From positions 1 to 64,000 of the forward strand of contig WYBC01000008.1 of assembly GCA_011526085.1 (NCBI GenBank): DNA of 64,000 nt, written 5' to 3'. The stretch's first letter is position 1, and each line of letters starts with the position of its first letter. Source of the DNA: Lysobacter sp. Lineage in GTDB: Bacteria > Pseudomonadota > Gammaproteobacteria > Xanthomonadales > Xanthomonadaceae. A program made the position numbers and the translations under genes. The notes under the pieces are model-generated. The model was not told where the DNA came from, made no database searches, and saw nothing but the letters and a program-made list of their open reading frames with translations. Shown here piece by piece: positions 3,994 to 7,763 of this stretch.

Positions 3994-5364
3994 TCAAACG
4001 CCGCCGGCAACGGTCATCCTGCCGAGCAGGATCGAACCGCAGCGGACATTCGACCGGACATCGACATCGCTGCCGATGGCCTCGATGCCCTGCAGCATGG
4101 CGCGCAGGTTGCCGGCGATGGTGATGCCGTCCACCGGATAGGCGATCCGGCCGTTTTCGACGTAAAAGCCGGCCGCCCCGCGCGAATAGTCGCCGGTCAC
4201 GGCGTTCACGCCCTGCCCCATCAATCCGGTCACCAGCAGGCCGGTGCCCATGTCGCGCACCAGGTCGTCCAGTCCGCCCGCGTTGGCCGCGACATCGAGA
4301 TTGAAAATGCCGCCGGCATTGCCGGTGCTCTGCAGCCCGAGCTTGCGCGCGGAATAGCTGCCGAGCACGTAGCGCTGCAGCACGCCGTCGCGGACCAGGT
4401 CCGACTCGCGGGTGGCGACGCCCTCGGCATCGAAGGCGCAGGAGCGCAGGCCGCGCATCAGGAACGGACGCTCGCTCAGCCGGCACCAGTCGGGCAGCAC
4501 CCGGGTGCCGACGCTGTCGAGCAGGAAACTGGCGCCGCGGTAGAGCGCGCCGCCGGAGACCGCATTGACCAGATGCCCGATGAGCGAACGCGCGACCTCG
4601 GCCTGGAACAGCACCGGCATGGTGCCGGTCGCCAGCGAGCGCGGCGCGAGCCGGGCCAGCGCCCGCTCCGCGGCCCGGCGGCCGACCGCCTCGGGCGCTT
4701 CCAGGTCTTCGCGCGCCAGCGCGAAGGTGTACCAGTGTTCGCGCTGCATGGCCTCGCCCTGGCCGGCGATCAGGCCGCAGGCGATGCTGTGCTGGGTGTC
4801 GCGCTCGCGCCCGAGGAAGCCGTGGCTGTTGGCGTAGACGCCGATCGATTCGCCCGTGGACACCGACGCGCCATCGGAGTTGGCGATGCGCGCATCCACG
4901 TCGCGGCCGGCGGTCTCGCAGGCCAGGGCCAGGTCGATCGCGGCATCGGCATCCAGCGCCCACGGGTGCCAGCTGTCGAATTCGCGCAGATCGGTCGCCA
5001 TCCGGTCGGCGTCGGCGAGTCCTGCCGCGGGGTCGTCCTCGGTGTGCCGGGCGATCGCGCAGGCCTGCGCGACGGTGGCTTCGAGGCTCTCCCGGCGCAG
5101 GTCGGCGGTGCTGGCGCTGCCCTTGCGCCGGCCGAAGTAGACGGTGATGCCGATGCTGCGGTCGCGGGTGGATTCCACGCTCTCCACCGCGCCCATGCGC
5201 ACGTTGACGTTGAGGCCGCGATCCTCGTCGCAGCTCACTTCGGCCTGGCTGGCACCCTGCGCGCGGGCGCGGGCCAGCAGGTCGCGGGCCAGCTCGGACA
5301 GGTGGTCCAGCCGCGCCAGGCTGTCGTCGGCGGCGACGGGGGATGCGGAAGCGATGACGTTCAA
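3994..5364 (-). CDS. pmbA: Metalloprotease PmbA/TldE
   Basis: The TldE/PmbA subunit of the TldD-TldE heterodimer, which in E. coli degrades unfolded peptides such as CcdA and processes microcin B17. The 456-residue length fits. The C-terminal half holds the family signature around [20 protein letters not shown]. PmbA lacks the HExxH site, which its partner TldD supplies; tldD lies 2 kb away on the same strand with darP between. The best start is a TTG at 5364 with AGGAT upstream; no ATG precedes the conserved N-terminal region. That codon is back-to-back with the divergent darP region, so both promoters must be compact. Confidence 0.92.
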
Positions 5365-5384
5365 TGCTTTATCCTGTAGCGACT

Positions 5385-5966
5385 ATGCGTGGAAAAGACC
5401 CCGAAACCGGCGACTTCCTGTCCCCCAGCCGCAGCCAGCAGCGGCGGGAGGCACTGGAAGTGCTCGAACTGGCCCGACAACTGTCGGCGTTGACGCCCCA
5501 GCAGCTGTCGCGGCTGCCGATACCGGACCGGCTGATGCCGCACATCGACGAGACCCGCAGGATCACGTCGCACGTGGCGCACAAACGGCAGTTGCAGTAT
5601 CTGGCGAAACAGATGCGACGGGAAGACGACGAGACGCTGGAAGCGATCCGCGACGCGCTGGACGTCAACGGCCACGCCGCGCGCGTCGAAGCCGCGATGC
5701 TGCATCGCGCCGAGGCCTGGCGCGAGCGCCTGATGGCCGACGGCGATGTCGCGCTGGGCGAACTGCTCACCGATTACCCGCAGGCCGATCGCCAGCACCT
5801 GCGCCAGCTCGCGCGCAACGCGCACGAGGAAAAACTGAAGAACAGACCGCCGCATGCATATCGCGAGCTGTTCCGCGAACTGCGCGAGCTGTTCGCGGAA
5901 CACCACGATGCCGATGGCGATGCCGACGAAGGCATCGACGACGGCATGGATCGCGACGAAGACTGA
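5385..5966 (+). CDS. darP: Ribosome maturation protein DarP (YjgA, DUF615)
   Basis: A 193-residue DarP/YjgA protein, which in E. coli binds late pre-50S particles and promotes maturation near the peptidyl transferase centre. The signature [13 protein letters not shown] is near residue 16, followed by [20 protein letters not shown] and the C-terminal WRERL...FRELREL helices. The ATG at 5385 gives the usual MRGKDPETG opening; an in-frame ATG at 5364 is less likely. The C-terminus is an acidic tail rich in Asp. It is divergent from pmbA, a conserved association, and followed after four bases by a related half-length gene. Confidence 0.92.
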
Positions 5967-5970
5967 GCGC

Positions 5971-6267
5971 ATGGGGCGCGCCGGTCCCATCGATCCCGGA
6001 CTGCTCCGCGCGATGCGCTGGCGCGAACGGTTGATCGCCGAAGGCTTCGACGCGCTCGCCGAATTCCTCGCCGCATGCCTGGCCAAGCACGCGGCAGCCG
6101 ATGCGAAGACGCTCAAACCGATGATCCAGAAGGCTGGCGCCATGCGCCACAGGCACGGTACGCCGCGCTTCCTGCTGCGATACATCCGCGCATTGGACGA
6201 GAACAAACACCGCATCGCGGTCGAAGACGTCGCCGATCAGGCCTTCGTCCCGCCCACCGTCAGCTGA
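5971..6267 (+). CDS. DarP C-terminal-domain-like protein
   Basis: A 98-residue protein whose ATG lies four bases after the darP stop, suggesting coupled translation. It is not annotated in any family I can name, but it aligns by eye with the C-terminal half of DarP next door: WRERLIAEG, then AL-EFL, then AD---L, a Pro and finally LLRYIRAL match Dar[10 protein letters not shown]...FRELREL over about 57 positions with a short indel. I infer a tandem partial duplication of darP that kept only the second half. Its 3' end overlaps the convergent tldD by 31 bp. Whether it binds ribosomes is unknown. Confidence 0.65.
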
Positions 6268-7688
6268 TCGATCAGCAGCGACGGCTGGCCCACGCCCACC
6301 GGCACGCTCTGACCGTCCTTGCCGCAGGTGCCGACGCCCTCGTCGAGCGCGAGATCGTGGCCGATCATCCGCACCCGCTGCATCGTCTCGGGGCCGTTGC
6401 CGATCAGCGTCGCGCCCTTCACCGGCGCGGTGATCTTCCCGCCCTCGATCAGATAGGCTTCGGTCGCGGAAAACACGTATTTGCCGCTGGTGATGTCGAC
6501 CTGGCCACCGCCGAAATTGACCGCGTACAAACCGCGCTTCACCGAACGGATCATGTCCTCGGGGTCGTCCTGCCCGGCGAGCATGTAGGTGTTGGTCATC
6601 CGCGGCATCACCAGATGGGCGAAGGATTCGCGGCGGCCGTTGCCGGTGGCGGGCATGCCCATCAACCGCGCGTTGTGGGTGTCCTGCATGTAGCCGGTCA
6701 GCACGCCGTCCTCGATCAGCGGGGTGCAGCGCGTGGGCGTGCCCTCGTCGTCGACGGTGAGCGAACCGCGCCGGCCCGGCAGGGTGCCGTCGTCGACGAT
6801 GGTCACGCCCGGCGACGCCACCCGCTGGCCCATCCGGCCGGCGTAGGTCGAGGTGCCCTTGCGGTTGAAGTCGCCTTCCAGGCCGTGGCCGACCGCTTCG
6901 TGCAGCAGCACCGCGGGCCAACCGTTGCCCAGCACCACCGGCATCGTGCCCGCGGGCGCATCGACGGCCTCGAGATTCACCAGCGCCTGGCGCAGGGCCT
7001 CGCGCGCGCAGCGCTCCGGACGTTCGTCGCCGAACAGTTCGTCGTAGGCGTAGCGGCCGCCGTAGCCGGCGCTGGCGGATTCGCGACGACCGTTCTGTTC
7101 GACGATCACCTGCACGTTCATGCGCACCAGCGGGCGGACATCGCCGGCGACGACGCCGTCGCTGCGGGCGACGAAGATGGTGTCGAGCGCCGCGGAGAGC
7201 GAGACGGTGACCTGGCGCACGCGCGGATCGGCGGCGCGAACCAGGCGATCGACGCGGCGCATGGCGTCGAGCTTGTCGGCGTTGGCGCAGGCATCGATCG
7301 GATCGACCGCGGCGTAGAGCGGTTCCATGCCGGTCCCCCGACCGTGCGCGAGCGCGGGCGGCGTGCGGGTATCGCCATCGCGCGCGATGGCCTTCGCGGA
7401 ACGCGCCGCGGCCAGCAGCGCGTCGGGGTTGATTTCGTCGGAGTAGGCGAAGCCGGTCTTCTCGCCGGAGATCGCGCGCACGCCCACGCCCTGGTCGATG
7501 GCATGCGAACCGTCGGTGATGATGCCGTCTTCCATCGTCCAGCCCTCGCGGCGCGAATGCTGGAAATACAGATCGCCGAAATCGATGCCGGGACCGAGCA
7601 GCAGGCCGAAGGCGCGCTCCAGCCCGGCGTGGTCGAGTCCGGCCGGGACGAGCAGGCGCGATTCGGGGAGAGACTGCATCGGGAGCAT
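6237..7688 (-). CDS. tldD: Metalloprotease TldD
   Basis: The catalytic subunit of TldD/TldE, a zinc-dependent protease that unwinds and cleaves unfolded peptide. The active-site motif HEAVGH (HExxH) is present in [14 protein letters not shown], followed by the typical GLEGD and [19 protein letters not shown] segments. Start choice: the ATG at 7688 gives 483 residues, close to the E. coli 481; in-frame ATGs at 7679 and 7709 and a TTG at 7748 are alternatives. It sits downstream of yhdP, as in E. coli rng-yhdP-tldD, 75 bp beyond the yhdP stop. Confidence 0.93.
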
Positions 7689-7763
7689 GGCGGTTCCGGT
7701 GGACGACATCGTGAAGGACAGGGTGGAGGCGACGTGCGCCGGTTTCAAACAGGGCGGGCGTCT

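Follow-up and report, generated by a model that had tools for sequence, protein, structure and literature searches.

The closest described relatives of the gene studied here are the DarP proteins, known in Escherichia coli as YjgA. As described in the passages of Du et al. 2024 (PMC11260487) drawn on here, the parts of E. coli YjgA are a loop at the N-terminus, a DUF615 domain in contact with H88, a long helix and a CTLH-like domain. That source assigns the two ends of the protein different roles on the pre-50S particle. A construct holding residues 111-183 fails to rescue a yjgA deletion, according to the same source.

A stand-alone paralogue of the C-terminal part of DarP was not described in the literature searched, among the matches listed. 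The same matches included one paper that uses the term DUF615 and no paper that names YjgA together with Lysobacter. In the portion covered of a survey on factors of ribosome biogenesis (PMC12641178), YjgA appears a single time and the term paralog is absent.

The window, which is the whole stretch of 64,000 nucleotides analysed here, holds a complete darP, followed by a much shorter gene that we call half-DarP. Table 1 lists the features of the locus.

Table 1. Features around half-DarP, in window coordinates
Feature	Position	Strand	Remarks
pmbA (tldE), divergent from darP, context only	3994..5364	-	NCBIfam metalloprotease PmbA, E 1.7e-155, above cut-off
darP (yjgA), 193 aa, complete	5385..5966	+	Pfam PF04751, E 9.5e-49; NCBIfam NF003593, E 2.7e-49, above cut-off; stop TGA 5964-5966
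spacer from darP stop to half-DarP start, 4 nt	5967..5970	+	read directly
half-DarP, 98 aa, C-terminal DarP part with CTLH-like domain	5971..6267	+	ATG 5971, TGA 6267, 98 codons; DarP-like core at about residues 7-78
tldD, convergent	6237..7748	-	NCBIfam metalloprotease TldD, E 4.2e-200, above cut-off

The first-pass annotation, made from the letters of the window, had a 98-residue reading frame starting four bases after the darP stop, and the coordinates agree with this. Such a spacing is compatible with coupled translation of the two genes. At its 3’ end, half-DarP overlaps tldD on the opposite strand by 31 bp (6237-6267). A consensus scan, which covers one type of promoter, found no sigma-70-like promoter in 5300-6400, and the promoter and terminator scan returned a single terminator-like site on the minus strand, which is within chance. 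The GC content of half-DarP is 0.670, that of darP 0.665 and that of the window 0.691, so composition does not mark the gene as foreign.

Two further things can be seen at this locus. The C-terminal run of the window’s DarP (5907-5963) is rich in acidic residues, and many of the Lysobacter DarPs examined have similar tails. There is also an antisense open frame of 284 codons (5361-6215, minus strand) that spans darP and most of half-DarP. It is probably a by-product of GC-rich coding DNA.

The annotation had also read the short protein as a relative of the C-terminal half of DarP, and had suggested comparing it with profiles of the family. That comparison does find DarP. Against the window’s own DarP, half-DarP is 33% identical over 78 columns (BLASTP, E 9e-7 for a single comparison), matching DarP residues 96-169. 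A profile built from 24 DarP C-termini, the window’s own included, gives it 37.7 bits in the unfiltered run, where the best of 2000 shuffles reaches 11.2. When the same profile is run over the 492 stop-to-stop frames of at least 60 amino acids in the window, two are reported: half-DarP (E 9.4e-11) and darP. A search of the window’s own genome gives just these two matches at E <= 10.

Public profiles score the single protein lower. Pfam PF04751 (DarP) matches with its positions 94-153 of 153 at E 1.7e-4 and 21.9 bits, below the gathering score of 26.3. All seven half proteins of alignment A2 match this Pfam family, with a best E of 5.3e-10. Membership of half-DarP in PF04751 thus rests on the half proteins as a family, given that the window’s protein by itself stays below the gathering score. 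The NCBIfam YjgA model (NF003593) gives 18.5 bits (E 0.0016), far from its curated cut-off of 70. Since that model describes a functional equivalog, half-DarP should not be named DarP. Searches of the PDB behave similarly: the single sequence yields weak matches (2p0t E 0.024, 7bl5 E 0.5), and the profile of seven half proteins yields strong ones (2p0t 8.9e-13, 7bl5 5.8e-8).

The half-protein profile matches residues 117-181 of E. coli YjgA, which means that by sequence the CTLH-like C-terminal helical domain of DarP is there. The N-terminal loop and the N-terminal, H88-binding domain are absent, and the reading frame is too short to hold them. Judged by sequence, half-DarP is a member of the DarP family, yet not a DarP.

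A window with 492 such frames invites the question whether this one is spurious, an accident of GC-rich DNA with a Pfam score under the gathering cut-off. We regard this as extremely improbable, given a profile score far above the shuffles, relatives at the same locus in other genomes, and a coding-like substitution pattern.

Structure prediction was done on two alignments. From a 30-row alignment, AlphaFold2 builds helices at 9-24, 26-36, 41-62 and 66-90, with a mean pLDDT of 78.8. From the seven half proteins alone the model is poor (mean pLDDT 56.6). The top two fold matches of the 30-row model are 9h3q_C 103-183, which is YjgA on the pre-50S (Z 7.2), and 2p0t, the YjgA of Pseudomonas syringae (Z 6.6). 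These scores are middling for helical bundles, and the next row after the YjgA structures has Z 4.2. Because 24 of the 30 rows are DarP C-termini, the fold match is partly built in. Foldseek found no match to this model at E <= 0.001.

The half gene is not common. Nine of the 20 genomes of a genus labelled g15 have it, in the darP-tldD gap. Three of the nine loci are 100% identical to those of named organisms, Lysobacter enzymogenes (G296), L. antibioticus (G146) and Lysobacter sp. cf310 (G024), and for this reason g15 is taken to be Lysobacter. In the other 11 of the 20 it is absent from the darP-tldD gap. By profile it is found in 1 of 11 genomes of the window’s own genus and is absent from 10. 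Strongly decayed copies could escape such profile searches, and the gap itself was read in some of the non-carriers.

Across the family sample, 10 of 395 genomes carry the half gene, all with the same placement between darP and tldD. The carriers score E <= 3.1e-19 and the next match 9.5e-12. One further genome (G032) also has two matches, likely placed in frames of 253 and 218 codons. In an order sample of 250 genomes (E <= 1e-6), the window’s is the only half-type match. Every other listed genome has one match, at E 3.2e-13 or weaker, nearly all in open frames at least as long as DarP; G448 has a frame of 107 codons near the start of a contig. The listed genomes include none of g15, and 127 genomes without a match are not among them. 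In a class sample of 369 genomes, the threshold of E <= 1e-13 was passed only by the window and by one frame of 178 codons (G925). These last two samples partly overlap the others.

Mobile elements were considered as a source. Plasmids gave no half-DarP match, and none of the 32 pattern matches in viral_contigs is a relative. With no relatives in either collection, a mobile-element, plasmid or viral origin was rejected. A scan of genome_contigs with the single half protein found nothing, and one that used A2 plus one peptide pattern picked up three Lysobacter. This is fewer than the genome searches gave, so the reach of that scan is limited.

Judged by eye, several g15 genomes that lack the half gene (loci L070, L072, L073, L075, L077 and L080) have repeat-like DNA in the darP-tldD gap, around CCCTCTCCCGC and the reverse complement of this sequence. 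Given such DNA, this convergent spot seems to accept insertions.

Where did the half gene come from? A tree was made of seven halves and 67 DarP C-termini. The halves form one group (support 100/99; 100% of 200 bootstrap trees), and the window’s half lies inside that group on a long branch. The tree program cautions about the small number of columns and about long branches that meet, and one DarP row (L030) has an absurd branch length of 10; G264, G306 and G242 are left out of the tree. The same three are missing from A2, and A3 omits G146 as well and takes its 24 DarP C-termini from a non-redundant set of 47. The half proteins also share a gap of three residues before the last helix and an end resembling HRHGTPRRLLRYLRALD, and these common features support a single origin. 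It is well supported that half-DarP is a real gene, an old paralogue that goes back to the 3’ part of darP.

The annotation had called the gene a tandem copy. A recent copy of the genome’s own darP does not fit, because half-DarP groups with the other halves and not with its own DarP. For the same reason a fresh duplication in the window’s lineage was rejected. The nearest neighbour of the window’s genome in the DarP+TldD tree (G004) has a darP-tldD gap of 17 nt and no half gene.

In seven of the ten copies (Lysobacter loci L034-L040), the half gene is in darP’s own frame, with only the darP stop and a short spacer in between. It looks as if darP had once been lengthened in frame, or partly duplicated, to give the half gene. 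Reading through the stop to make a longer DarP was considered too, as three of these seven (G286, G146 and G242) have no in-frame ATG. This is disfavoured: the darP stop varies between TGA and TAA, and the copies in G000, G024 and G264 are out of frame.

Not all copies are intact. Five of the ten are open and have an in-frame ATG (G000, G024, G296, G201 and G324), although the only ATG of G024 lies inside darP. The copy in G286 is open and lacks an in-frame ATG; a TTG occurs further inside it. That of G264 is interrupted by an in-frame TAA. In G306 the last helix is gone, and the frame runs on with no nearby stop. G146 and G242 are near-identical and also lack an in-frame ATG, with a TTG further in. 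Four of the ten copies look decayed, probably through three events. This means that the half gene is optional or dispensable, and is being lost in places.

Substitution in the half-DarP family is coding-like. The codon models behind this come from a home-made script and cover 66 codons with deep branches, without G306 and G242. Over eight half copies, omega is 0.198, with lnL -1116.03 against -1159.86 at omega=1, which is 43.8 units worse. The darP genes of the same eight carriers, used as a yardstick, have an omega of 0.163, and their C-terminal part 0.134. For the branch leading to the window, the models put omega at 0.09-0.12 and reject omega=1 on each of four topologies: on the best one with omega 0.12 and p 4e-4, on the other three with p 6e-5 to 4e-7. 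As this branch is very long and undivided, constraint may have relaxed in recent times. Pairwise dN/dS between the window’s copy and the eight other half copies is 0.29 to 0.58, which is less clear than the codon model. The L. antibioticus branch (G146) behaves differently from the rest (omega 1.1-2.7, p 0.003 to 1e-4) and is indistinguishable from 1. The annotation had proposed looking at conservation and dN/dS, and relatives with coding-like substitution are what that look returned.

These numbers bear on a reading that the annotation had also raised: that half-DarP is a decaying or function-free partial duplicate of darP on its way out, the window’s copy included. The damage in G264, G306 and G146/G242 fits this, as do the omega of the G146 branch and the many genomes without the gene. 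For some Lysobacter copies, with their nonsense codon, missing ATG or lost last helix, decay is a fair description. For the window’s copy it is disfavoured. That copy is open and has an ATG, its branch rejects omega=1, and the family omega of about 0.2 is close to that of darP. Overall, we consider loss without function somewhat unlikely.

Could the half instead stand in for a degenerate C-terminus of DarP itself? This is not supported, as the DarP C-termini of the eight carriers are constrained (omega 0.134). The half therefore most likely adds to DarP’s own domain and is not a replacement.

The half genes fall into at least two types, G201/G324 and G024/G264/G286/G296/G146, with the window’s copy outside or between them. 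These types do not follow the species. A species-like topology is far worse than the gene topology (lnL -1193.12 vs -1116.03). For example, G324 and G306 are sisters whose flanks are 91.7-98.9% identical in six stretches, but whose half genes are 66.5% identical. The G324 half gene is closer to that of G201 (84.4%), and the G306 half gene is nearer to G296 (77.9%) than to its sister, where it should be noted that decay lowers the figures for G306. The open copies of G324 and G296 show the same pattern, with flanks at 88.2-95.8% and the half gene at 71.7%.

One explanation is that recombination in the conserved flanks exchanged alleles; the other is that an earlier array of half genes has since lost different members in different lineages. 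The same two alternatives apply to how the window’s lineage gained its copy. In the DarP+TldD tree, the genus of the window lies far away from Lysobacter.

A patchy gene with diverged types at one locus, in conflict with the species tree, could point to a role in defence. Half-DarP would then be an accessory ribosome protection factor, its exchanged alleles shielding the maturing large subunit from antibiotics or other ribosome-directed attack in soil Lysobacter. According to the literature covered, Lysobacter do make antibiotics. The neighbours pmbA, tldD and yhdP, on the other hand, suggest no link to resistance or biosynthesis, and we find this reading quite improbable.

As to function, the construct that fails to rescue a yjgA deletion covers nearly the same residues. 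If the passages covered are a guide, the domain alone does not do DarP’s job, so half-DarP is not a small DarP. Tentatively, and at somewhat less than even odds, we favour a free CTLH-like domain that would act in trans where DarP’s own domain binds, at the base of the L1 stalk of the pre-50S. It would probably be transcribed together with darP and translated by re-initiation directly after it. The product would be an all-helical domain that has neither the loop nor the N-terminal domain that Du et al. call DUF615. Bound at the site of DarP’s own domain, it could hold H68 undocked, or compete with the C-terminal domain of DarP. The result would be an adjustment of the timing or dose of DarP action.

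Expression, coupling to darP, the site on the 50S and a role as modulator are all inferred. That half-DarP binds the same 50S site as DarP, as the annotation had also suggested, is plausible from the identity of the domain. Most likely it adds to or competes with DarP’s own domain. The net charge of the half core is +7 for the window’s protein and lies between +4 and +6 for three other half proteins (69-75 residues counted), and that of the DarP C-terminus is -1 and +1 in two genomes (69 residues). In the rows counted, this more basic core would suit RNA binding without an N-terminal anchor.

Half-DarP may also act on DarP and not on the ribosome, by associating with it through the CTLH-like domain and so buffering its inhibition of growth. 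The tight linkage to darP would make sense for such a partner. In the passages of PMC11260487 covered, CTLH sequences in LisH proteins are linked to dimerization, and the C-terminal domain is suggested to lessen the inhibitory effect of the N-terminal part. The literature covered yielded no data on dimerization of DarP, however, and we think a DarP partner unlikely.

A broader version of the favoured reading joins the trans-acting domain to the allele types. In it, half-DarP would be a separate trans-acting modulator of 50S maturation, of which several diverged alleles have been exchanged between lineages at one spot. We give this combination a low probability. If it is true, these bacteria have an accessory gene, not needed by all of them, that tunes large-subunit assembly or shields it from attacks on the ribosome. 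Half-DarP illustrates that a ribosome-assembly factor can have a paralogue that is optional. A CTLH-like domain that stands alone beside an intact DarP, in some species but not in their close relatives, is also a natural experiment on the role of that domain.

Compared with DarP/YjgA (PF04751, UPF0307; structures 7bl5 and 9h3q from E. coli, 2p0t from P. syringae), half-DarP is homologous over the last 65 or so residues. In the 30-row alignment of both, the columns of R18, G25 and R66 are invariant, and those conserved at 90% or more include W17, R20, A43, D44, L48, P65, R70 and R73. Unlike DarP, half-DarP has no N-terminal loop or N-terminal domain, and it is a separate gene beside an intact darP. 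It also lacks three residues ahead of the last helix, and its end, described above, replaces a 16-letter stretch of DarP. The KPPxAxREL stretch of DarP C-termini is missing from the half proteins; together with the three residues, this loss may have changed the binding surface. The nearest thing to half-DarP made in a laboratory is the construct YjgA-deltaN (residues 111-183), which, as presented in the passages of PMC11260487 covered, is about the same part of the protein as a separate polypeptide. YjgA-deltaN is a truncation of the E. coli protein, whereas half-DarP is a natural paralogue that exists alongside a full DarP.
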